Source of the DNA: an uncultured Oscillospiraceae bacterium
GTDB lineage: Bacteria; Bacillota; Clostridia; Oscillospirales; Oscillospiraceae
Direction of reading: 5' to 3'
Assembly: GCA_944385395.1 (NCBI GenBank)
Contig: CALWXA010000051.1
Location: 1-38,444 of the forward strand
DNA: 38,444 nucleotides
The notes below the pieces were generated by a model that searched no databases, was not told the DNA's origin, and worked only from the letters and a program-made list of their open reading frames with translations. The position numbers were made by a program, and so were the translations under genes. Positions 2,840-13,314 of the stretch are shown in pieces. Position 1 is the stretch's first letter, and every line of letters begins with the position of its first letter.

Positions 2840-4675
2840 ATGAGCAGACTTGACATCAAAAGTCCCAGCAGAGCCCAGACCGTGGTGGATAACCTGTACC
2901 GGGATGTGGAGCGGCGCATCGCCGCCAGTCCTCCGGGACTGTGCCCGGTGGATATGTCCCGGTCGTTCCTGCAGCTGTGCCACGCCCAAAGCTGCGGCAA
3001 GTGCGTGCCCTGCCGCATCGGTCTGGGGCAGCTGAGCATGCTGATCGGCCAGGTACTGGACGGTACCGGCACCATGGAGACCATCGATATCATTGAAAAA
3101 ACCGCCCGCACCATCGTCAATACCGCCGACTGCGCCATCGGACGTGACGCCGCACGGCTGGTAGTGGATGGATTGGAGGGCTTCCGGGACGACTACGAAG
3201 AGCACGTCAAGCATCACCGGTGTCTTGCCGGGCTGCAGAACCCTGTGCCCTGCGTATCCCTGTGCCCCGCCGGTGTGGATATCCCCGGCTATGTGGCCCT
3301 GGTGGGTGAAGGGCGCTATGCCGACGCCGTGCGTCTCATCCGCAAGGACAATCCCATGCCCGTATCCTGCGCCTACATCTGCGAGCATCCCTGCGAGGCA
3401 CGGTGCCGCCGGAACATGATCGACGACGCCATCAACATCCGGGGCCTCAAGCGCTACGCCGTGGATCACGCAGGCGACGTGCCCAATCCCCCCAATGCCC
3501 CCTCCACCGGCAAGCGGGTGGCCATCATCGGCGGCGGACCCAGCGGTCTGAGCTGCGCTTACTATCTGACACTGATGGGCCATCAGGTCACCATCTACGA
3601 AGAGCGCAAGCAGCTGGGTGGTATGCTGCGCTACGGCATCCCCAGCTACCGCTATCCCCGGCATCTGCTGGATCGGGAGATCCAGTCCATCCTCTCCACC
3701 GGCATCGAGGTACACACCAGCATCACCGTGGGCAAGGACATCACCTTCGATGAGATCCATCAGAAATACGACTGCCTGTACATCGCCATCGGCGCCCAGC
3801 AGGACAAGAAAACCGGCATCCCCGGAGAGGACAGCCGCAACGTCATCTCCGCCGTGGAGATGCTCCGGGCCATTGGCGACGACCACATGCCGGATTTCAG
3901 CGGCAAGAATGTGGTGGTCATCGGCGGCGGCAACGTGGCGATGGACGTCACCCGCAGTTCCATCCGCCTGGGGGCCGACAAGGTCACCTGCGTATACCGC
4001 CGGCGGGTGGAGGATATGACCGCCCTGCCCGACGAGGTCACCGGTGCTCTGGCGGAAGGAGCCGAGCTGATGACTCTGGCCGCCCCCGTACGCATCGAGG
4101 CAGACGAAAACGGCGTGGCCCAGGCCTTGTGGGTACAGCCCCAGATCATCGGCGAGACCGACAAGTCCGGGCGGCCCCGGCCCAACAAGGCGGCACTGGA
4201 CGAAGTACGGATACCGGCGGATATCATCGTGGTGGCCATCGGCCAGGGCATCGAGATCCAGGGCTTCACCCAGTCCGGCATTCCCATCAAGCGGGGCACC
4301 TTCGTGGCGGCCAGCTCCAGCCAGGTGGACAACATGGACAACGTCTTTGCCGGCGGCGACTGCGTCACCGGGCCCGCTACCGCCATCCGGGCCATTGCCG
4401 CCGGTAAAGTGGCAGCCGCCAACATCGATGAGCAGCTGGGATTCTGCCATGAGATCCGGGTGGATGTGGACGTTCCGGCACCCCGGCTCAACAACCGTCC
4501 GCCCCATGGGCGCATCAACACCACCGAGCGGGAAGCCTATGAACGCAAGCATGATTTCTGCGACATTGAGTGCGGCATGACAGAGGAAGGCGCCCGGACG
4601 GAAGCGTCCCGCTGCCTGCGCTGCGATCACTTTGGATACGGTATTTTCAAGGGAGGTCGGATCGAAAAATGGTAA
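2840..4675 (+). CDS. NuoF C-terminal/GltD-like fusion NAD(P)-linked iron-sulfur flavoprotein
   Basis: A 611-aa electron-transfer protein, probably the pyridine-nucleotide partner of the hydrogenase encoded next. Residues 45-105 match the [4Fe-4S] end of NuoF/HydB: SCGKCVPCR gives C52, C55 and C58, with C98 in 'TADCAIG'. From about 125 it is a glutamate synthase small-subunit (GltD) fold with Cys ligands C138, C142, C181, C185 and C189, an FAD loop IIGGGPSG (229-236), a second dinucleotide loop IGGGNVAMD (361-369) followed by YRRR, and a final FAD-binding GG-D segment. The C-terminus adds a CLRC pair. It lacks the FMN/NADH-binding part of NuoF. SD AAAGGAG precedes the ATG. It overlaps hydA by 7 nt. 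The fold is clear; NADH versus NADPH and true partner are inferred. Confidence 0.85.
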   Translation: MSRLDIKSPSRAQTVVDNLYRDVERRIAASPPGLCPVDMSRSFLQLCHAQSCGKCVPCRIGLGQLSMLIGQVLDGTGTMETIDIIEKTARTIVNTADCAIGRDAARLVVDGLEGFRDDYEEHVKHHRCLAGLQNPVPCVSLCPAGVDIPGYVALVGEGRYADAVRLIRKDNPMPVSCAYICEHPCEARCRRNMIDDAINIRGLKRYAVDHAGDVPNPPNAPSTGKRVAIIGGGPSGLSCAYYLTLMGHQVTIYEERKQLGGMLRYGIPSYRYPRHLLDREIQSILSTGIEVHTSITVGKDITFDEIHQKYDCLYIAIGAQQDKKTGIPGEDSRNVISAVEMLRAIGDDHMPDFSGKNVVVIGGGNVAMDVTRSSIRLGADKVTCVYRRRVEDMTALPDEVTGALAEGAELMTLAAPVRIEADENGVAQALWVQPQIIGETDKSGRPRPNKAALDEVRIPADIIVVAIGQGIEIQGFTQSGIPIKRGTFVAASSSQVDNMDNVFAGGDCVTGPATAIRAIAAGKVAAANIDEQLGFCHEIRVDVDVPAPRLNNRPPHGRINTTEREAYERKHDFCDIECGMTEEGARTEASRCLRCDHFGYGIFKGGRIEKW

Positions 4676-6405
4676 CGTTGACCATCGACGGCAGAACCGT
4701 CACCGTACCGGAGGGCACCACCATTCTGGAGGCCGCCCGGTCCGTACATCTGGATATTCCTTCTCTGTGCTACCTCAAGGACATCAACGAGATCGGCGCC
4801 TGCCGCATCTGCATCGTGGAGGTGGAGGGCTATGAGCGGCTGGTCCCCTCCTGCGACAACGCCGTGGCAGAGGGTATGGTGGTATACACCAACTCTCCCC
4901 GGGTCCGGGAGGCCCGGCGCGTGAACCTGCGGCTTTTGCTGAGCCAGCACGACACCAAATGCACCCAGTGCACCCGCAGCGGCAACTGCCGGCTGCAGGA
5001 GCTGTGCAACGACTACAACCTGCTGGGCGATCATTACGCCAAGGATCTGCGGCCGGTGCCCGACGACTTCTCCACCCCGGTGATCCGGCTGGAAAACCGG
5101 TGCATCAAGTGCATGCGCTGCATCCAGGTCTGCGACAAGATCCAGTCTATGAACATCTGGGACGTCATCGGCAGCGGTTCCCGGGCCACGGTAGGCGTGG
5201 CCAGACACCGGAGCCTGGCCGAATCCGACTGCACCTTCTGCGGCCAGTGCATCACCCACTGTCCCGTAGGCGGCCTGCAGGAGCACGACGATACCGGTAA
5301 GGTCTTTGATGCGCTGGCCGATCCCAACAAGATCACCGTGGTGCAGGTGGCCCCGGCGGTACGGGCGGCCTGGGCCGAGTACTATCATCTGGACCCCAAG
5401 TTCGCCACCGCCCAGCGGATGGTGACGGGTCTGAAGCACATGGGCTTCGATTATGTGTTCGATACCAATTTCGCCGCAGACCTTACCATCATGGAGGAGG
5501 GCAGCGAATTCCTGCAGCGGTTCACCCATCGGGAGCGGTATACCTGGCCCATGTTCACCTCCTGCTGCCCCGGCTGGGTGCGGTTCGTCAAGGGACAGTT
5601 CCCCCAGTACACCCAGAATCTCTCCACCGCCAAATCTCCCCAGCAGATGTTCGGGGCCGTAGCCAAGAGCTACTTCGCCCAGAAGCTGGGTGTGGATCCC
5701 CACAACATTTTCGTGGCATCCATCATGCCCTGCACCGCAAAAAAGAGCGAGGCCAAGCTGCCCACCATGCGTGACGCCTGCGGCGATCCCGATGTGGATG
5801 TGGTGCTCACCACCCGGGAGATGGTCCGCATGTTCCGGGGCGAGCAGGTGAATCCCGCTGTCATGGCCGAGACGCCCTTCGACAGTCCTCTGGGCACCGG
5901 CACCGGCGCTGCCGTGATCTTCGGCGCCACCGGCGGCGTTATGGATGCGGCGCTGCGCAGTGCTTACTATCTGGTCACCGGGTCCAATCCCGATCCCGAC
6001 GCCTTCCACAGCGTCCGGGGTATGGATGGCTGGAAAGAAGCCGTATTCACCATCCCCGGCGCCGGCGACGTCCGGGTGGCGGTGGTCAGCGGGCTGGGCA
6101 ATACCCGGCGGCTGATGGAGGCCCTGGAGAGCGGCCGGGCATCCTACGATTTCGTGGAAGTCATGGCCTGTCCCGGCGGCTGCGCCGCCGGCGGCGGTCA
6201 GCCCATCCACGACGGTGTGGAAATGGCCGAGTCCCGGGGCGGCGTGCTGTGGAATCTGGACGCCGATGCCACCATCCGGTTCTCCCACGAAAATCCCGAT
6301 GTACAGGCGCTGTATGCCTCCTATCTGGAGCGGCCGCTGGGTGAAAAGTCTCACCATCTGCTGCACACCCAGCACGACGCCTGGAAAATGCCCAACCAGC
6401 AGTAA
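4669..6405 (+). CDS. hydA: [FeFe] hydrogenase, group A catalytic subunit
   Basis: Reversible H2 oxidation/proton reduction at an H-cluster, cytosolic (no Tat or Sec signal). At 578 aa it aligns almost residue for residue with the length and layout of Clostridium pasteurianum CpI. Domains: N-terminal [2Fe-2S] (C34, C45, C48, C62); His-Cys3 [4Fe-4S] (H94, C98, C101, C107); two [4Fe-4S] (C145/148/151/155 and C188/191/194/198); H-cluster motifs TSCCPGW (297-303), MPCTAKKSE (353-361) and MACPGGCAAGGGQP (499-512). The proton-relay Cys next to the first H-cluster Cys is present (C299). The ATG at 4669 is chosen because the protein then starts at the [2Fe-2S] domain and GGGAGG lies 12 nt upstream. 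Maturases HydEFG are not in this window and must be elsewhere. Confidence 0.97.
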   Translation: MVTLTIDGRTVTVPEGTTILEAARSVHLDIPSLCYLKDINEIGACRICIVEVEGYERLVPSCDNAVAEGMVVYTNSPRVREARRVNLRLLLSQHDTKCTQCTRSGNCRLQELCNDYNLLGDHYAKDLRPVPDDFSTPVIRLENRCIKCMRCIQVCDKIQSMNIWDVIGSGSRATVGVARHRSLAESDCTFCGQCITHCPVGGLQEHDDTGKVFDALADPNKITVVQVAPAVRAAWAEYYHLDPKFATAQRMVTGLKHMGFDYVFDTNFAADLTIMEEGSEFLQRFTHRERYTWPMFTSCCPGWVRFVKGQFPQYTQNLSTAKSPQQMFGAVAKSYFAQKLGVDPHNIFVASIMPCTAKKSEAKLPTMRDACGDPDVDVVLTTREMVRMFRGEQVNPAVMAETPFDSPLGTGTGAAVIFGATGGVMDAALRSAYYLVTGSNPDPDAFHSVRGMDGWKEAVFTIPGAGDVRVAVVSGLGNTRRLMEALESGRASYDFVEVMACPGGCAAGGGQPIHDGVEMAESRGGVLWNLDADATIRFSHENPDVQALYASYLERPLGEKSHHLLHTQHDAWKMPNQQ

Positions 6406-6471: not shown

Positions 6472-7149
6472 ATGCAATACGAACTCATCGGCGGCTCTTT
6501 TCCCGTAGTAATCTGCAAGCTGGAAAACGGCGAACAGATGATCACCGAAAGCGGCTCCATGGTCTGGATGTCTCCCAACATGGAGATGCAGACCAGCGGC
6601 GGCGGACTGGGTAAGATCTTCTCCCGGGCCCTGTCGGGAGAAAACCTGTTCCAGAATATTTACACCGCCCGGGGCAACGGTATGATCGCCTTTGGCTCCA
6701 GCTTCCCCGGCAAGATCGTACCCATCGAGATCGGGCCGGGCAAGGAAATGATCCTGCAGAAAAACTCCTTCCTGGCCAGTGAGGCCGGAGTGGATCTTTC
6801 CATCCATTTCAGCCGCAAGCTGGGCTCAGGCTTTTTCGGCGGCGAAGGGTTCATCCTGCAGCGCCTGTCCGGACAGGGCATTGCCTTTGCTGAGATCGAC
6901 GGCGAGCTGGTACAGTATGATCTGGCACCTGGCCAGCAGATGGTGGTGGATACCGGCAACGTGGCAGGCTTCGAGCCCTCGGTGTCCATGGACATCCAGC
7001 AGGTCCGGGGCGTGAAGAACGTATTCCTGGGCGGTGAGGGTCTGTTCCACACCGTACTTACCGGGCCCGGCCGGATTTGGCTGCAGACCATGCCCCTGAG
7101 CAATGTGGCCATGGCCCTGCGCCCCTTCTTCCCCTCCAACAACAACTGA
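6472..7149 (+). CDS. AIM24 / TIGR00266-family protein
   Basis: A 225-aa, all-beta, glycine-rich protein without signal peptide or membrane helix. The start 'YELIGGSFPVVICKLENGEQMITESGSMVWMS' pattern, the internal GGEGFILQRLSG segment and the ending 'GPGRIWLQTMP' are typical of the AIM24/TIGR00266 family. Bacterial members have no settled function; the yeast namesake is mitochondrial. SD AAGGAGGATC precedes the ATG. It is 66 nt downstream of hydA with no terminator between, so it may ride on the hydrogenase transcript. A strong terminator follows. Confidence 0.85.
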   Translation: MQYELIGGSFPVVICKLENGEQMITESGSMVWMSPNMEMQTSGGGLGKIFSRALSGENLFQNIYTARGNGMIAFGSSFPGKIVPIEIGPGKEMILQKNSFLASEAGVDLSIHFSRKLGSGFFGGEGFILQRLSGQGIAFAEIDGELVQYDLAPGQQMVVDTGNVAGFEPSVSMDIQQVRGVKNVFLGGEGLFHTVLTGPGRIWLQTMPLSNVAMALRPFFPSNNN

Positions 7150-7162
7150 TCACTCTGCAAAA

Positions 7163-7194
7163 CCCCGGCGTCCCCTGGCGCCGGGGTTTTTCTT
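7163..7194 (+). terminator. Intrinsic terminator after the AIM24 gene
   Basis: CCCCGGCG (7163-7170) pairs with CGCCGGGG (7179-7186), extended by flanking A/T pairs and followed by TTTTTCTTT. This isolates the following RNA/polyamine region from the hydrogenase operon. Confidence 0.93.
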
Positions 7195-7226
7195 TCCGCA
7201 AATTCCGGCAAAAAATGCAGCAGTCA

Positions 7227-7255
7227 TTGACACCGGCCAAGGGATGTGATAATAT
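7227..7255 (+). promoter_or_regulatory. Near-consensus promoter driving the structured RNA and polyamine operon
   Basis: TTGACA (7227-7232), exactly 17 bp, then TAATAT (7250-7255) preceded by TGA, an extended -10. The predicted start is near 7262. This is among the strongest promoter matches in the window and suggests abundant transcription of the RNA that follows. Confidence 0.88.
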
Positions 7256-7261
7256 TTCACC

Positions 7262-7484
7262 AATGCGCGAGAGTTTATCTAGCGAATACGAGGACCACTC
7301 CTCTCGGGGAGTTAAGGCCATACGGACAGCCGGGTCCACTGCCGATTGGCGGCTTGCCGCCTTATTGATTGAGTTAAAAGCTCAAATTTTATAAGTTGGT
7401 TACTTTATAACCGAAATGCGTGATTACGCAGACTTGTGAAACGGTCAATAAGAGTAGTAAAAGTATTGTTGCTATATAGACTCT
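7262..7484 (+). ncRNA. Highly structured RNA (about 215 nt) upstream of speA, class unknown
   Basis: No plausible ORF is present. The segment is closed by a long end helix: 7270-7283 pairs with 7471-7484 over 14 positions (12 Watson-Crick, one G-U, one mismatch). Inside, hairpins can be read directly: GGACC 7292-7296 with GGTCC 7333-7337 enclosing ACTCC 7297-7301/GGAGT 7308-7312; GGCGG 7348-7352/CCGCC 7357-7361 with a CTTG tetraloop; TTGAG 7369-7373/CTCAA 7381-7385; GGTTA 7398-7402/TAACC 7408-7412; TGCGT 7417-7421/ACGCA 7426-7430; CAATA 7446-7450/TATTG 7464-7468. The last loop (AGAGT 7451-7455) could form a pseudoknot with ACTCT 7480-7484, competing with the end helix. I find no T-box, lysine, SAM, TPP, cobalamin or ykkC signature. 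Size and complexity would suit the raiA-type RNAs of Firmicutes, but I cannot confirm that by eye. It may be a free ncRNA, a riboswitch aptamer, or both. Confidence 0.72.
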
Positions 7485-7586
7485 GAGTACCCAAGGCTCC
7501 GCCCGGCAGGTGATCCTGTCCATGGCGGCTTCATGTGCCGCCCTGTCCATGGCGGCGGTACGGGTGCGTCAACTGGATCGCTTTTC
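7485..7586 (+). promoter_or_regulatory. Second leader domain with direct repeats and alternative pairings
   Basis: GTACC (7487-7491) and GGTAC (7557-7561) can close this domain. Inside lie GGCAGG (7505-7510)/CCTGTC (7515-7520) and GGCGGC (7524-7529)/GCCGCC (7537-7542). A 15-nt direct repeat occupies 7515-7529 and 7542-7556, so most of GCCGCC (7537-7542) can pair with GGCGGC of either copy (7524-7529 or 7551-7556). This kind of choice is what an RNA switch needs, but whether it affects the terminator at 7587 is inference. Confidence 0.5.
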
Positions 7587-7623
7587 ATGCAGGCTGTGTT
7601 GTCACAGCCTGCATTTTTGTTTT
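7587..7623 (+). terminator. Perfect intrinsic terminator directly upstream of the speA ribosome binding site
   Basis: A 12-bp perfect stem (7587-7598 with 7603-7614) around TTGT, followed by TTTTGTTTT. The T-tract runs straight into the speA SD (GGTGAGG, 7624-7630). There is no room for a promoter between terminator and gene, so the operon must be transcribed through it or from a start inside the leader. That makes it a likely attenuator. Confidence 0.9.
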
Positions 7624-7639
7624 GGTGAGGTATACGGCC

Positions 7640-9097
7640 ATGTACAAATTGGATCAAAATCAGGCGCCCATCCATCAGGCGCTGCAGAAATTCCGCCAGA
7701 TGCGGGTAGTACCCTTCGATGTGCCCGGCCACAAGCGGGGCCGGGGCAATCCGGAGCTGACGGCATTCCTGGGCGAGCAGTGCGTGGGCATCGACGTCAA
7801 CAGCATGAAGCCTCTGGACAATCTCTGCCATCCCATTTCCGTGATCCGTCAGGCAGAAGAACTGGCCGCCGACGCCTTCGGCGCCGCCCACGCCTTTTTG
7901 ATGGTAGGCGGCACCACCAGCTCCGTGCAGAGCATGGTGCTGGCCACCTGCAAGCCCGGGGACAAGATCATCCTGCCCCGGAACGTACACCGCAGCGTCA
8001 TCAACGCCCTGGTACTGTGCGGCGCCATCCCGGTCTACGTGAATCCGGAGGTGGATTCCCGGCTGGGCATCTCTCTGGGCATGAAGCGTGAGCAGGTGGA
8101 AAAGGCCATTGCCCAGCACCCCGACGCCGTGGCCGTATTGGTGAACAACCCCACCTACTACGGCATCTGCAGCGATCTGAAGGCCATCGTGGACATGGCA
8201 CATCAGGCCGGCATGTACTGTCTGGCAGATGAGGCCCACGGTACCCACTTCTATTTCGGAGAAAACATGCCCATTTCCGCCATGGCCGCCGGGGCGGACT
8301 TTGCCTCGGTATCCATGCACAAAAGCGGCGGAAGTCTGACCCAGTCCAGTCTGCTGCTCATCGGCCCCAACGTGCAGGAGGGCCATGTGCGCAAGATCAT
8401 CAACCTCACCCAGACCACCTCCGGCAGCTATCTCCTGATGTCCAGTCTGGACATCAGCCGCCGGAACCTGGCCCTGCGGGGCAAGAAGGTTTTCTCCCAG
8501 GTGGTATCCATGGCCGAATACGCCCGGGAGGAGATCAACGCCATCGGCGGCTACTACGCCTTCGGACGGGAGCTCATCAACGGCGACTCCATCTTCGATT
8601 TCGACGCCACCAAGCTGAGCATCCACACCCGGGACATCGGCTTGGCGGGCATCGAGGTATACGACCTTTTACGGGATGAGTACGACATCCAGATCGAGTT
8701 CGGCGACATCGGCAACATCCTGGCCTATCTCTCCATTGGCGACCGGCCGGCGGAGCTGGAGCGGCTGGTCAGCGCCCTGGCGGAGATCCGCCGGCGGTAT
8801 CAGACCGACGGCAGCGGCTTGATGAATCAGGAATACATCGACCCGGAAGTGGTCATCAGCCCCCAGGACGCCTTCTACGCCGAAAAGGTCAGCGTACCGC
8901 TGGACGAGAGCGTAGGCAAGGTGTGCAGCGAGTTCGTCATGTGCTATCCCCCCGGCATCCCCATCCTGGCACCGGGTGAGCGGATCACCCCCGCCATTCT
9001 GGATTACATCCGCTACGCCAAGGCCAAGGGCTGCTCCATGACCGGTACGGAGGATCCCGACATCGCACACATCAATATTCTGCAGGAGGACGTGTGA
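7640..9097 (+). CDS. speA: Arginine decarboxylase (Orn/Lys/Arg decarboxylase fold I, SpeA type)
   Basis: PLP enzyme that most likely decarboxylates arginine to agmatine, the first step of the operon. At 485 aa it matches the short B. subtilis-type SpeA rather than the roughly 700-aa wing-containing family. Visible: PFDVPGHKRG (25-34), a glycine-rich PLP loop FLMVGGTTSS (86-95), DEAHGTH (197-203, Asp to the pyridine N) and the Schiff-base lysine in SMHKSGGSLTQSS (K228). The ATG at 7640 is chosen because GGTGAGG (7624-7630) lies 9 nt before it, although the frame stays open upstream through the leader. Lysine is an alternative substrate for the family, but the adjacent agmatinase supports arginine. 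It overlaps speE by 1 nt. Confidence 0.9.
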   Translation: MYKLDQNQAPIHQALQKFRQMRVVPFDVPGHKRGRGNPELTAFLGEQCVGIDVNSMKPLDNLCHPISVIRQAEELAADAFGAAHAFLMVGGTTSSVQSMVLATCKPGDKIILPRNVHRSVINALVLCGAIPVYVNPEVDSRLGISLGMKREQVEKAIAQHPDAVAVLVNNPTYYGICSDLKAIVDMAHQAGMYCLADEAHGTHFYFGENMPISAMAAGADFASVSMHKSGGSLTQSSLLLIGPNVQEGHVRKIINLTQTTSGSYLLMSSLDISRRNLALRGKKVFSQVVSMAEYAREEINAIGGYYAFGRELINGDSIFDFDATKLSIHTRDIGLAGIEVYDLLRDEYDIQIEFGDIGNILAYLSIGDRPAELERLVSALAEIRRRYQTDGSGLMNQEYIDPEVVISPQDAFYAEKVSVPLDESVGKVCSEFVMCYPPGIPILAPGERITPAILDYIRYAKAKGCSMTGTEDPDIAHINILQEDV

Positions 9098-9969
9098 TGG
9101 AACTGTGGTTCAGTGAATTTCATGCCCCGGACGTCAAGCACAGCATCCGGGTGGACCGGCATCTCTATTCCCACAAAAGCGACTATCAGCAAATCGACAT
9201 CTATGAGACCCCGGAATTCGGCCGGGTGCTGACCCTGGACGGCAACGTGATGCTCACCGAGCGGGACGAGTTCATCTACGACGAGATGATCACCCATGTG
9301 CCCATGGCGGTGCATCCCAACGTGCAGGACGTGCTGGTCATCGGCGCCGGAGACGGCGGCGTGGTCCGGGAGCTGGCACGGTATGACTCCATCCGGTGCA
9401 TCGATCTGGTGGAGATGGACGATCAGGTGGTGAAGGCCTGCCGGATGTATCTGCCGGAAAACGCCAGCCGCCTGGATGACGCACGGGTACACATCTATTT
9501 CGACAACGCCCTGCGGTTCATCCGCCGCTGCCACGCCCAGTACGATCTCATCATCGTGGACTCCACCGATCCCTTCGGCCCCTCCGAGGGACATTTCACC
9601 CGGGAGTTCTACGGCATTTGCTACAACGCTCTGCGGGATGACGGCATCCTGGTGAACCAGCAAGGCAGCCCCTTCTACCGCCACGACGCCGAGGCCATGC
9701 AGCGCAGCCACAAGCGCATCGCCACCACCTTCCCCATCAGCCGGGTGTATCAGGCCCATATCCCCACCTACGCTGCCGGGTACTGGCTTTTCGGCTTTGC
9801 CAGCAAGAAATACCACCCCATTGACCACTTCAACAAGGAAAAGTGGCTCTCGCTGAATCTCAAGACCAATTACTACACCGTGCGGCTGCATGTGGGAGCC
9901 TTCTATCTCCCGGCATTTCTGGAGCGGCTGCTGGAGGAAGTGGAGGATAAACCATGCGACCGAACATAG
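9097..9969 (+). CDS. speE: Polyamine aminopropyltransferase (spermidine synthase)
   Basis: Transfers an aminopropyl group from decarboxylated S-adenosylmethionine to putrescine or a related amine. It is 290 aa, standard length. Features: N-terminal beta-strand domain with 'LTLDGNVMLTERDEFIYDEMITHVP' pattern, the SAM loop IGAGDGG (82-88), VEMDD (105-109) and the catalytic VDSTDPFGPSEGHF (154-167, D155 and D158). The start ATG overlaps the speA stop (TGATG) and AGGAGG lies 7 nt upstream; a GTG one codon earlier is possible. No S-adenosylmethionine decarboxylase (speD) is visible here, and a carboxyspermidine route is encoded two genes downstream, so its real substrate is open. Confidence 0.92.
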   Translation: MELWFSEFHAPDVKHSIRVDRHLYSHKSDYQQIDIYETPEFGRVLTLDGNVMLTERDEFIYDEMITHVPMAVHPNVQDVLVIGAGDGGVVRELARYDSIRCIDLVEMDDQVVKACRMYLPENASRLDDARVHIYFDNALRFIRRCHAQYDLIIVDSTDPFGPSEGHFTREFYGICYNALRDDGILVNQQGSPFYRHDAEAMQRSHKRIATTFPISRVYQAHIPTYAAGYWLFGFASKKYHPIDHFNKEKWLSLNLKTNYYTVRLHVGAFYLPAFLERLLEEVEDKPCDRT

Positions 9970-10823
9970 AAACCTTCATTGGCTGCGACAGCAGCTACCA
10001 TCAGGCCGACGTAGTGCTCTTTGGGGCGCCCTTCGACTCCACCACCAGTTTCCGGCCCGGGGCTCGGTTCGGCCCGTCGGCCATGCGCCATGAGAGCTTC
10101 GGGCTGGAGACCTACAGTCCCTATCAGGACCGGGATCTCACGGACTGCCGGATCTTTGACAGCGGCGATCTGGAGCTGTGCTTCGGCAACTCCCGCAGCG
10201 CTCTGGACGATATCCGCAATCACACCCGGCAGATCCTCTCTGACGACAAGTTCCCCCTGCTGCTGGGGGGCGAGCATCTGGTGACGCTGGGGGCCGTGGA
10301 GGCCGTGGCGGAGCGGTATCCCCATCTGCACATCATCCACTTCGACGCCCACGCCGATCTGCGGCAGGATTATCTGGGGGCGCAGCTGAGCCATGCCTGC
10401 GTCATCCGGCGCTGCCACGACCTTTTGGGGGACGGACGGATCCATCAGTTCTGCATCCGCAGCGGCGAGCGGGAGGAGTTCCGGTTCGGCCGGGAGCACA
10501 CCGACTTCCATCCCCTGAGCTTTGAGGGGCTCAGCGAGACGGTAGAGCAGCTGCGGCAGGAGGGCTGTCCGGTATATCTCACCATTGATCTGGATTGTCT
10601 GGACCCCGCCTCCTTCCCCGGCACCGGCACGCCGGAGGCCGGAGGCGTCAGCTTCCTGCAGCTTTTGGAAGCCATCCGGCAAGTAGCCGATACCCGGCTG
10701 GTGGGTGCCGACCTCAATGAGCTTGCACCCATGCTGGATCACAGCGGCGTTTCCACCGCCACCGCCTGCAAGGTGCTGCGGGAACTGCTGCTGGCCATTG
10801 CACCTTCGTATCCCCGGGATTGA
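9954..10823 (+). CDS. speB: Agmatinase-family ureohydrolase
   Basis: Manganese-dependent hydrolysis of a guanidino group, giving urea; the expected reaction is agmatine to putrescine. 289 aa. The metal ligands are all present: GGEH (H108), DAHAD (D131, H133, D135) and TIDLDCLDP (D212, D214). SHAC (146-149) is the usual substrate-loop segment. It overlaps speE by 16 nt and has its own SD (GGAGG within speE). Because the next two genes build a carboxy-aminopropyl group, the enzyme might instead, or also, act on aminopropylagmatine; sequence alone cannot decide. Confidence 0.92.
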   Translation: MRPNIETFIGCDSSYHQADVVLFGAPFDSTTSFRPGARFGPSAMRHESFGLETYSPYQDRDLTDCRIFDSGDLELCFGNSRSALDDIRNHTRQILSDDKFPLLLGGEHLVTLGAVEAVAERYPHLHIIHFDAHADLRQDYLGAQLSHACVIRRCHDLLGDGRIHQFCIRSGEREEFRFGREHTDFHPLSFEGLSETVEQLRQEGCPVYLTIDLDCLDPASFPGTGTPEAGGVSFLQLLEAIRQVADTRLVGADLNELAPMLDHSGVSTATACKVLRELLLAIAPSYPRD

Positions 10824-10859: not shown

Positions 10860-12119
10860 ATGAGCAAGGTATTAGTCATCGGCTGCGGCGGCGTGGCCTC
10901 CGTTGCCATCCGTAAGTGCTGCCAGGTCAGCGAGGTATTCACCGACCTGTGCATCGCCAGCCGCACCAAGTCCAAGTGCGACGATCTGGCCGCCGCTCTG
11001 GCCGGCAAGACCGCTACCCGCATCACCACCGCCCAGGTGGATGCCGACAACGTACAGGAGGTCATCGACCTCATCAAGGCCTACCAGCCCGATCTGGTGA
11101 TGAACATCGCCCTGCCCTATCAGGATCTGACCATCATGGACGCCTGCCTGGCCTGCGGCGTCAACTACATGGATACCGCCAACTATGAGCCGGAGGACAC
11201 CGACGATCCGGAATGGCGGGCCATCTATGAAAAGCGCTGCAAGGAAGAGGGCTTCTCCGCCTACTTCGACTACAGCTGGCAGTGGGCCTATCGGGAGCAG
11301 TTCGAAAAGGCCGGGCTCACCGCCCTGCTGGGCTGCGGCTTCGATCCCGGTGTGACCCAGGCCTACTGCGCCTATGCCAAGAAGCATCATTTCGACACCA
11401 TTGACACCATCGACATTCTGGACTGCAACGGCGGCGACCACGGCTATCCCTTCGCCACCAACTTCAACCCCGAGGTGAACCTGCGGGAAGTGTCCGCCCC
11501 CGGCAGCTACTGGGAGGACGGCCACTGGGTGGAGATCCCCGCCATGAGCATCAAGCGGGAGTACAACTTCGATCAGGTGGGCATGAAGGACATGTACCTG
11601 CTGCACCATGAGGAGATCGAGTCTCTGGCCCAGAACATCCCGGAAGTGCAGCGCATCCGGTTCTTCATGACCTTCGGCCAGAGTTATCTGACCCACATGA
11701 AGTGCCTGGAGAACGTGGGGATGCTGTCCACCACCCCGGTGGAATTCGAGGGCCATCAGATTGTGCCCATCAAGTTCCTCAAGGCCCTGCTGCCGGATCC
11801 CGCTTCCCTGGGCCCCCGGACCAACGGCAAGACCAACATCGGCTGCATCTTCACCGGTAAGAAGGACGGCAAGGATGTCACCTACTACATCTACAACGTC
11901 TGCGACCATCAGGAGTGCTACAAGGAAGTGGAGAGCCAGGCCATCAGCTACACCACCGGCGTTCCCGCCATGTGCGGCGCTCTGATGCTGCTCACCGGTA
12001 AGTGGAACAAGACCGGCGTCCACACCGTGGAGGAGTTCGATCCCGATCCGTTCCTGGATGCCCTGGATCAGTACGGTCTGCCCCGCAGCGAAAGCCATAA
12101 CCCGGTGCTGGTGGACTGA
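10860..12119 (+). CDS. Carboxyspermidine-type dehydrogenase (saccharopine dehydrogenase family)
   Basis: NAD(P)H-dependent reductive condensation of aspartate semialdehyde with an amine, probably putrescine to carboxyspermidine, or agmatine to carboxyaminopropylagmatine. 419 aa. An N-terminal Rossmann loop (VLVIGCGGVASVAI, 4-17), the 'YMDTANYEPED' region and 'GCGFDPGVTQAYCAYA' are typical of the saccharopine dehydrogenase-like CASDH/CANSDH enzymes and not of lysine-pathway saccharopine dehydrogenase. The direct neighbour is the matching decarboxylase nspC, only 1 nt away, which strongly supports the assignment. SD AAAAGGAG precedes the ATG after a 36-nt gap from speB. Confidence 0.9.
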   Translation: MSKVLVIGCGGVASVAIRKCCQVSEVFTDLCIASRTKSKCDDLAAALAGKTATRITTAQVDADNVQEVIDLIKAYQPDLVMNIALPYQDLTIMDACLACGVNYMDTANYEPEDTDDPEWRAIYEKRCKEEGFSAYFDYSWQWAYREQFEKAGLTALLGCGFDPGVTQAYCAYAKKHHFDTIDTIDILDCNGGDHGYPFATNFNPEVNLREVSAPGSYWEDGHWVEIPAMSIKREYNFDQVGMKDMYLLHHEEIESLAQNIPEVQRIRFFMTFGQSYLTHMKCLENVGMLSTTPVEFEGHQIVPIKFLKALLPDPASLGPRTNGKTNIGCIFTGKKDGKDVTYYIYNVCDHQECYKEVESQAISYTTGVPAMCGALMLLTGKWNKTGVHTVEEFDPDPFLDALDQYGLPRSESHNPVLVD

Positions 12120-12120
12120 T

Positions 12121-13314
12121 ATGGCCGTATCTCCCGCCTTTGCCGCTCTGGAGCCGCAGCGGCTGTCTGCCCTCCCCTCTCCCTGCTACGTCATCGACGA
12201 AGGGCAGCTTCTGAAAAACGCCCAATGCCTGGGAGCGCTGGCAGAGCGCACCGGGTGCCGGGTACTGCTGGCCCAGAAGGCTTTTTCCAACTACGACTTC
12301 TACCCCCTTCTGGCCCAGTACCTGGCGGGCACCGAGGCCAGCGGCCTCTTTGAAGCCCGGCTGGGCAAGGAGGAAATGCCCGGCGGCGAGGTACACGTTT
12401 TCTGCGCCGCCTACCGGGAGGAAGAATTCCAGGAGCTGCTGGAATACGCCGACCACATCGTGTTCAACTCCCCGGCCCAGCTGGCACAGTTCGGCCCCCG
12501 GGCCAAGGCTGCCGGCAAGGAGGTGGGGCTGCGGATCAATCCCCAGCACTCCACCCAGGAAGGTCACGCCATCTACGATCCCTGCGCTCCCGGCAGCCGT
12601 TTAGGCGTCACCCGAGAGGTATGGGATCAGCAGATGACCCCGGAGCTCATGGCTCTGCTGGATGGGCTCCACTTCCACACCCTGTGCGAGCAGGATTCCG
12701 ACGATCTGGCCTCCACCCTGCAGGCGGTGGAGCAGCGGTTCGGTGACGTACTGGTCCAAATGAAATGGCTGAACATGGGCGGCGGGCATCACATCACCCG
12801 GCCGGGGTATGATCTTCCCCGGTTGGAAGCGTGCATCCGCCACGCTCAGGAGGTCTGGGGCGTGACGGTATATCTGGAGCCCGGTGAGGCGGTAGCCCTC
12901 AACGCCGGGTATCTTGTGAGCCAGGTACTGGATCTGGTGGAGAACGCCGGAGTGCGCATCGCCATTCTGGACACCAGCGCCGCCTGCCACATGCCGGACG
13001 TACTGGAGATGCCCTATCAGCCCCCCATTTACCATGCCGTGGCGGGCGGTGAGGGGGATCACGTCTACCGGCTGGCCGGGCCTACCTGTCTGGCAGGGGA
13101 TGTGGTGGGAGATTACGCCTTTGACCAGCCCCTGCACATAGGGGACACGGTGCTCTTCGGTGACATGGCCATCTACACCACCTGCAAGAACAACACCTTC
13201 AACGGCATGCCCTTGCCGGATATCTGGCGTCTGACGCCCCAGGGCCATACGGAACAGCTGACCCGGTTTGGGTATCGGGACTTCAAAATGCGGCTGGGAC
13301 GGGAAAAAGAATAA
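12121..13314 (+). CDS. nspC: Carboxy(nor)spermidine decarboxylase
   Basis: PLP enzyme of the alanine-racemase fold that decarboxylates carboxyspermidine/carboxynorspermidine (or the agmatine equivalent) to the free polyamine. 397 aa. The PLP lysine is in LLAQKAFS (K53). Other family landmarks are 'HFHTLCEQ', 'NMGGGHHITRPGYD', 'EPGEAVALNAGYL', 'CHMPDVLEMPYQP' and GPTCLAGDVVGDY, which holds the active-site Cys and Asp expected from the dimer partner. The ATG at 12121 begins 1 nt after the stop of the preceding gene with only a weak SD, so translation is probably coupled. It is the last gene of the polyamine operon; a hairpin follows. Confidence 0.93.
   Translation: MAVSPAFAALEPQRLSALPSPCYVIDEGQLLKNAQCLGALAERTGCRVLLAQKAFSNYDFYPLLAQYLAGTEASGLFEARLGKEEMPGGEVHVFCAAYREEEFQELLEYADHIVFNSPAQLAQFGPRAKAAGKEVGLRINPQHSTQEGHAIYDPCAPGSRLGVTREVWDQQMTPELMALLDGLHFHTLCEQDSDDLASTLQAVEQRFGDVLVQMKWLNMGGGHHITRPGYDLPRLEACIRHAQEVWGVTVYLEPGEAVALNAGYLVSQVLDLVENAGVRIAILDTSAACHMPDVLEMPYQPPIYHAVAGGEGDHVYRLAGPTCLAGDVVGDYAFDQPLHIGDTVLFGDMAIYTTCKNNTFNGMPLPDIWRLTPQGHTEQLTRFGYRDFKMRLGREKE

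Follow-up and report, generated by a model that had tools for sequence, protein, structure and literature searches.

The leader of a polyamine operon in an uncultured Oscillospiraceae bacterium contains a structured RNA of about 215 nt (7270-7484). We consider it probable that this RNA is part of a leader that attenuates transcription in cis, most likely as a riboswitch that responds to a polyamine end product, with spermidine as the first candidate. The structured RNA itself is real. Attenuation, as read from the sequence, is well supported by the conserved fold, the association with particular genes, the terminator and a co-varying antiterminator; that a small molecule binds directly, which ligand this is and which way the switch works are what we infer beyond this. 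It is also likely, if somewhat less so, that the RNA represents a structurally new and common polyamine riboswitch class of about 215 nt over the Bacillota, which would shut off biosynthesis or import by means of a terminator arm that competes with P6 and P8.

Architecture of the leader

The window, i.e. the whole stretch of DNA that was analysed, is 38,444 nt of contig CALWXA010000051.1. Along it, an AIM24-family gene ends at 7149 and is followed by a promoter-like site, the RNA domain, an intrinsic terminator and the ATG of speA at 7640 (Table 1). The leader extends from approximately 7262 to 7622 on the plus strand and combines the structured domain with the terminator. A sequence-only reading of this DNA had placed a candidate structured RNA at 7262-7484. 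These boundaries hold for the domain, but they miss the functional 3' part, namely the linker and the terminator up to 7622.

Several features described in that reading were borne out. A near-consensus promoter is present, with 0.7 sites as good found in shuffles of the region, so that the promoter by itself is unremarkable. The stretch of about 215 nt was said to lack coding potential, and every open reading frame of at least 60 amino acids that touches 7262-7484 enters from outside. In the 14-position end helix, P1, 13 positions pair and a single C/U mismatch remains; the duplex has an energy of -20.9 kcal/mol, compared with -9.5 +/- 2.6 kcal/mol when the 5' strand is shuffled (1/1000 as good). 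The fold energy of 7262-7484 is -72.6 kcal/mol (z -3.97; 1/200 shuffles as good). At least six internal hairpins had been proposed, and P2, P2a and P3-P8 were indeed found in relatives. We rejected by eye the idea that the 3' block is coding (an open frame from GUG), the spacers between blocks differing by 1-2 bases among loci.

Further upstream, the window carries genes for an NADH-oxidoreductase-like protein and an [FeFe]-hydrogenase (PF02906) at 2840-6405, followed by the AIM24 gene. A terminator-like hairpin lies behind the latter at about 7170-7187.

Table 1. Positions of the leader elements and operon genes in the window.
Feature	Position	Strand	Remarks
Promoter-like site, TTGACA-17-TAATAT	7227-7255	+	TTGACA at 7227, 17-nt spacer, TAATAT ending at 7255; 10/12 consensus matches
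Conserved RNA domain, candidate aptamer	7270-7484	+	Closed by P1 (7270-7283/7471-7484)
Part under RF02440	7292-7345	+	P2 (7292-7296/7333-7337) and P2a (7297-7301/7308-7312)
P3 hairpin	7348-7361	+	7348-7352/7357-7361; the minimum-energy fold of this leader lacks it
P4	7363-7450	+	7363-7368/7445-7450; around P5-P8; almost invariant, few double changes
P5 hairpin	7369-7385	+	7369-7373/7381-7385
P6	7387-7441	+	7387-7397/7431-7441; A-U rich, conserved G-U pairs; around P7 and P8
P7 hairpin	7398-7412	+	7398-7402/7408-7412
P8 hairpin	7417-7430	+	7417-7421/7426-7430
Conserved block UCAAUAAGAGUAGUAAAAG	7445-7463	+	Retained in shortened forms, with one base change in 2/3 loci
Antiterminator, RNA side, CGCAGACUUGUG	7427-7438	+	3' strands of P8 and P6
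Antiterminator, terminator side, UGCAGGCUGUG	7588-7598	+	Inside the terminator 5' arm
Intrinsic terminator	7587-7622	+	12-bp stem (7587-7614) and U tract, before speA
speA-type Orn/Lys/Arg decarboxylase (PF01276)	7640-9097	+	First operon gene; under the NCBIfam decarboxylase cut-offs
speE, spermidine synthase	9094-9969	+	TIGR00417 above cut-off
speB-type agmatinase	9954-10823	+	TIGR01230 above cut-off
Carboxynorspermidine synthase-like	10860-12119	+	NF043000 399.7 bits, below the curated cut-off of 800; PF16653/PF03435
nspC, carboxynorspermidine decarboxylase	12058-13314	+	TIGR01047 above cut-off; true start probably further in

Relation to known RNA families

At curated thresholds, the sole Rfam match in the whole window is RF02440 (SpF59_sRNA, Streptococcus sRNA SpF59, 'ldcC RNA'), with 73.3 bits against a gathering threshold of 37.2. 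The Rfam scan suggested by the sequence-only reading thus returned a family, but one that covers 54 nt of the approximately 215-nt RNA. The same reading was right that no common riboswitch signature fits, and had not foreseen this match. Its suggestion of a new RNA has to be narrowed: one corner is already known, being filed in Rfam as a streptococcal sRNA, and papers of 2010 and 2012 describe pneumococcal transcripts from the matching place. Over the 54 nt the likeness to RF02440 extends to both sequence and fold, and the Rfam name itself points to ldcC. The RF02440 model does not cover the whole molecule, as conservation and covarying helices span about 225 model positions. RF02440 is typed as an sRNA gene, whereas the window RNA would be cis-regulatory, includes an expression platform and is found across many families of the phylum. 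In a set of 14 control genomes, RF02440 had a match in Lactococcus lactis.

The remaining 15 Rfam matches in 7150-7640 at E <= 10 all fall below their family thresholds, and raiA, SAM-I, FMN and T-box RNAs gave no match in this region at that E value. The raiA motif (RF03072) had been guessed at because of its size and complexity, which are indeed similar (209 positions), yet it matched neither 7150-7640 nor anything in the genome, and the guess was abandoned. The 14 control genomes gave no raiA match either, which makes the test on 7150-7640 the stronger of the two.

RF02440 probably corresponds to F59, SN20 and srn235 of Streptococcus pneumoniae, the link between SpF59 and F59 being drawn from the name. 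F59 is reported as an 82-nt RNA between SP0915 and SP0916 (PMC3395615), and SN20, between the same two genes, is listed as a 318-nt transcript with a predicted promoter and terminator (PMC2887815), a hint in favour of the attenuator reading. Kumar et al. 2010 suggested an FMN switch for SN20 (PMC2887815), a proposal that we rejected in view of the missing FMN match in 7150-7640. A Tn-seq table gives a lung fitness of 0.05 for SN20 and srn235; this value may reflect an effect on downstream genes.

Distribution and downstream genes

Scanning contigs with an exact 20-base core gave at least 118 loci (L019-L136), which are not a random sample; because they were picked by the core, its conservation among them is by construction. 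Among the matches listed are Paenibacillus, Fontibacillus, Bacillus, Neobacillus, Faecalibacterium, Gemmiger, Flavonifractor, Blautia, Neglectibacter, Acidaminococcus, Phascolarctobacterium and many metagenome-assembled genomes (MAGs). Two diverged homologues, both before speD, lie on MAG contigs labelled Spirochaetes and Synergistaceae (L065 and L093, one each), where mis-binning is possible. The core pattern had no exact match in IMG/VR contigs, and hence showed no viral link.

In most loci, homology spans the whole domain up to UUGCUAUAUAGACUCU. The RNA could be cut at both ends in 130 of 136 loci, and a few have a decayed 3' part. These 130 complete RNAs include 128 distinct sequences, of which 89 are left at 85% identity; the first genes of the 89 are speD (37), speA (31), potA (14) and carboxynorspermidine synthase (6), with one too short. 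R1, a covariance model that spans the full domain, was built from 36 sequences and has 225 positions and 64 pairs. Of 398 genomes sampled from the phylum, it matches 23; RF02440 matches 18 of the 398 and misses five of the 23. Within the order, R1 matches 51 of 197 genomes, with a single match per genome in all listed cases.

The downstream genes were identified by tblastn with seven reference proteins, namely SpeA, SpeE, SpeB and NspC of the window and SpeD, carboxynorspermidine synthase and PotA taken from loci. Five of the 136 loci, all of which were found by RNA sequence alone, have too little downstream DNA. In the other 131, the nearest same-strand downstream match is speD (45), speA (41), carboxynorspermidine synthase (28) or potA (16), to which L116 is added, a locus whose contig ends within the first 20 residues of carboxynorspermidine synthase. 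The gene starts 30-458 nt beyond a fixed anchor (190 nt past the first base of the core) in 130 loci, leaving no space for a further gene of usual size. Further R1 loci gave the same picture: a polyamine gene is nearest in 32/32, one of which nearly duplicates a locus found before, including weak matches of 42.8, 33.5 and 30.4 bits. Together, a polyamine gene is nearest in 163/163 loci with enough downstream DNA, a number that is not a species count, as some places are represented twice, once from each of two collections (e.g. L008 and L044). From the order scan, 21 of the 51 matches were given no locus; one of them (G270) is L151, and the other 20 stand outside the gene counts. Naming of representatives by NCBIfam and Pfam identified the gene of L014 as adenosylmethionine decarboxylase and that of L098 as PotA (562 bits vs 550), with PotB- and PotD-like genes under their cut-offs. 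The suggestion that the RNA is a regulator tied to polyamines is supported by the polyamine gene behind every homologue with enough DNA, and by the expression platform that most of them have.

Carboxynorspermidine synthase was found in 0/4 potA-type genomes vs 7/7 biosynthesis-type genomes, all seven matches being below the model cut-off. The potA-type genomes are G583, G568, G544 and G408 (loci L176, L174, L179 and L180); two are incomplete (60% and 85%), and a weaker PF01276 match of some kind occurs in each of the four. In these genomes it is as if the RNA were placed on the only polyamine supply of the cell. In G000 (93% complete), which has the window operon with speE (9094-9969), an adenosylmethionine decarboxylase of either NCBIfam type was not found, and the E. 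coli type was not found in three relatives with speA first (G069, G555 and G524).

Conserved fold and covariation

Compensatory changes were assessed in the 89 loci (alignment A2) and in 32 loci outside the seed (A3), four of which resemble a seed sequence to 90% or more and none to 99%. Both alignments were fitted to the model, so that the counts lean towards it: changes on both sides occur in 52/64 pairs of A2 (27.4 +/- 2.4 in shuffles) and in 42/64 pairs of A3 (20.7 +/- 2.2), with 0/500 shuffles as high in either case. The covariation score is 0.240 in A2 and 0.262 in A3, compared with 0.116 and 0.112 in shuffles; slid controls reach at most 0.067 and 0.063, respectively. A tree-aware test on the model-fitted alignment, from which 13/89 rows with large gaps had been removed, found four column pairs at E <= 0.05. 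All four are in the fold, being the closing pair of P2 and three pairs of P2a, and amount to four of its 64 pairs; 15 of the 64 top-scoring column pairs belong to the fold. On a plain MAFFT alignment (12/89 rows removed), the closing pair of P2 alone passes. Compensatory changes in the fold are seen in sequences outside the seed as well.

The helices differ in what they can contribute. P4 and most of P6 are almost invariant, which leaves little covariation visible there, and P1 and P8 (helices 1-4 and 13) pair less well than the others (52-77% of cells). P6 keeps two G-U pairs in 71 and 83 of the 89 loci; in our reading, these pairs let its 3' strand change partners. Columns that are at least 95% identical number 39 in A3 and 53 in A2, across several junctions, the identity in A2 being partly by construction as most of its loci were chosen by the exact core.

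Just 5' of P1, loci of Paenibacillus and Clostridia (e.g. L025 and L108) show, by eye, an upstream hairpin. The 5' strand of P1a lies in the loop of this hairpin, which would make P1a a pseudoknot in those loci.

Terminator and antiterminator

Of 121 loci, 107 have a terminator behind the RNA and before the gene (shuffles, 43.2 +/- 5.5; maximum, 54), the 121 being those of the 136 loci with a recognisable 3' end, a downstream match and at least 25 nt between them. The finder missed 14/121 loci, and approximately one third of shuffled regions pass it. The median terminator has a stem of 13 pairs and is located 45 nt upstream of the gene. A CAAG-like 5' arm is present in 66/107 by a loose count, made without a control.

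The antiterminator analysis covered 66 nonredundant loci, each with 8 or more pairs in the terminator stem. With every second RNA position tried, the 12-mer most complementary to the terminator 5' arm is the one at 7427-7438 (mean gain, -4.8 kcal/mol; t -12.3; 66 loci). The arm pairs with its own RNA at -13.3 kcal/mol vs -10.5 kcal/mol with the RNA of other loci (66 loci; 0/5000 permutations), and this advantage is also seen inside the speA (22 loci), speD (29) and potA (13) classes; the carboxynorspermidine synthase class has too few loci for the test. The permutation test ignores the tree, and a scan of 37 RNA segments serves as its control: within gene classes, the segments starting at 7415-7433 stand out clearly (z -3.5, -7.4, -4.7 and -2.6) and the other 33 stay within 2.0. 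In the window, the predicted antiterminator pairs CGCAG-A-CUUGUG with the terminator-side strand, giving 11 pairs around one bulge. Because the terminator arm co-varies clearly with the 3' strands of P8 and P6 only, the folded P6/P8 and the antiterminator would be mutually exclusive. A role of the P1 3' strand in the antiterminator was considered and rejected, as it gave no signal vs shuffles (mean z -0.05; 107 loci).

A leader peptide, MKELSAKGVLVNFF..., in Paenibacillus-like leaders was also rejected: it is limited to five similar leaders, and the other carboxynorspermidine synthase leaders listed contain no like peptide. In these five (L005, L007, L012, L105 and L115), the short frame downstream of the RNA reads MK(E/K)LS..GVL(V/L/M)NFF and is probably due to chance.

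Proposed mechanism and alternatives

Transcription would start near 7262, and the leader would fold into the P1-P8 domain. A stably folded domain, presumably with ligand bound, would let P8 and P6 hold their 3' strands and so leave the terminator 5' arm free. The terminator would then form and RNA polymerase would halt before speA (OFF). If the domain is unlocked, the 3' strands of P8 and P6 would pair with the terminator 5' arm, no terminator would form, and the polyamine operon would be transcribed (ON). The window energies, calculated without ligand, are -142.0 for the terminated fold vs -124.7 with the antiterminator forced (approximately 17 kcal/mol favouring termination); before the terminator 3' arm exists, they are -122.8 vs -114.5 with the antiterminator (approximately 8 kcal/mol). 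As the energies favour the terminated fold, ligand-free read-through is not predicted by them alone. Read-through must then come from kinetics, or P6 must be weaker than modelled, or the proposed direction is wrong.

The homologues show what may be expected of a riboswitch: a conserved structured domain with compensatory changes, an expression platform that is exclusive with part of this domain, and downstream genes of one metabolite pathway (131/131 and 32/32). A riboswitch of the same build might instead respond to a precursor or relative of spermidine, such as agmatine, putrescine, cadaverine, norspermidine or decarboxylated SAM. We regard such a ligand as possible but unlikely, in the knowledge that this reading overlaps with the preferred one, which names polyamines generally. 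It would fit the placement of the first genes at different steps (arginine/lysine decarboxylation, AdoMet decarboxylation and carboxynorspermidine synthesis), but the control of both the potA importer and biosynthesis points to the end product that is common to all routes.

The chances are lower still for an attenuator of polyamine genes in which an RNA-binding protein, or some other macromolecule, reads the signal and the RNA does not bind a ligand itself. The attenuation evidence from sequence would all look identical in that case; the spread of columns at least 95% identical (39 in A3, 53 in A2) over several junctions, however, is more reminiscent of an aptamer than of a short protein site. 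General cation sensing, whereby polyamine or Mg2+ would stabilise the fold and favour termination without a selective pocket, seems improbable to us. P6, being A-U rich with conserved G-U pairs, should be easily stabilised, and polyamines bind RNA generally, as stated in PMC10853860, but such sensing would not need strict sequence conservation outside helices. Finally, we give very little credence to an independent trans-acting sRNA, as the Rfam name has it, with the adjoining genes incidental: SN20 and F59 were described as sRNAs in S. pneumoniae, but a terminated leader would itself show up as an sRNA, a same-strand polyamine gene follows in every locus with enough DNA, and the RNA and its terminator co-vary, something for which a stand-alone sRNA has no need. 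For the preferred reading, a polyamine riboswitch, the antiterminator is a direct handle for testing the switch.

Relation to other polyamine RNAs

Polyamine riboswitches have long been expected. The one bacterial class that we found in the open-licence PMC literature is the rare SAM-I variant described by Salvail et al. 2023 (PMC10853860), and its authors state that more such classes are surely left to find. This spermidine riboswitch likewise has polyamine genes downstream (ldcC, speE and speB), and is an OFF switch acting by intrinsic termination, as is proposed here for the window RNA. It differs in having the SAM-I fold, whereas the window RNA has no SAM-I match (7150-7640, E <= 10). Its consensus derives from 13 representatives with a distribution that the authors call narrow (PMC10853860), compared with the 23/398 phylum genomes that have the window RNA.

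Two other candidate structured RNAs before polyamine-related genes differ from the window RNA in host and build, going by their published descriptions. The potE motif is restricted to Veillonella and precedes a putrescine-ornithine antiporter gene, and the odc1 motif is an alphaproteobacterial hairpin with a uORF (both PMC8632094). The ABC-leader before the polyamine import genes potABCD of Haemophilus somnus and Pasteurella multocida (PMC2965389), which we also compared by description, has a premature terminator too. We found no account of the present RNA as a riboswitch or at full length in open-licence PMC full text; a report in a subscription journal or preprint is possible. Six polyamine terms had zero counts in an RNA-discovery paper (PMC11109978), as did the terms looked for in the TIGR4 transcriptome paper (PMC6296669).

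The RNA is common in the sampled genomes, and its proposed function would explain how polyamine levels are set in many gut and soil Bacillota. Judging by its size and conservation, the pocket that would bind a simple polycation is an elaborate one.

Shortened forms

Forms of approximately 110-115 nt precede speD in three genomes of one genus (three of ten tried in the family). They lie around position 1500 of their loci (L217, L218 and L219), with a promoter in the position otherwise taken by the 5' half. By eye, P2, P3, P5 and P7 are lost, and P1b, CUUGUGAA, the AAUAAGAGUAGUAAAAG block and the 3' end are kept. Either the 3' half is the indispensable part of the RNA, or these are decaying copies.
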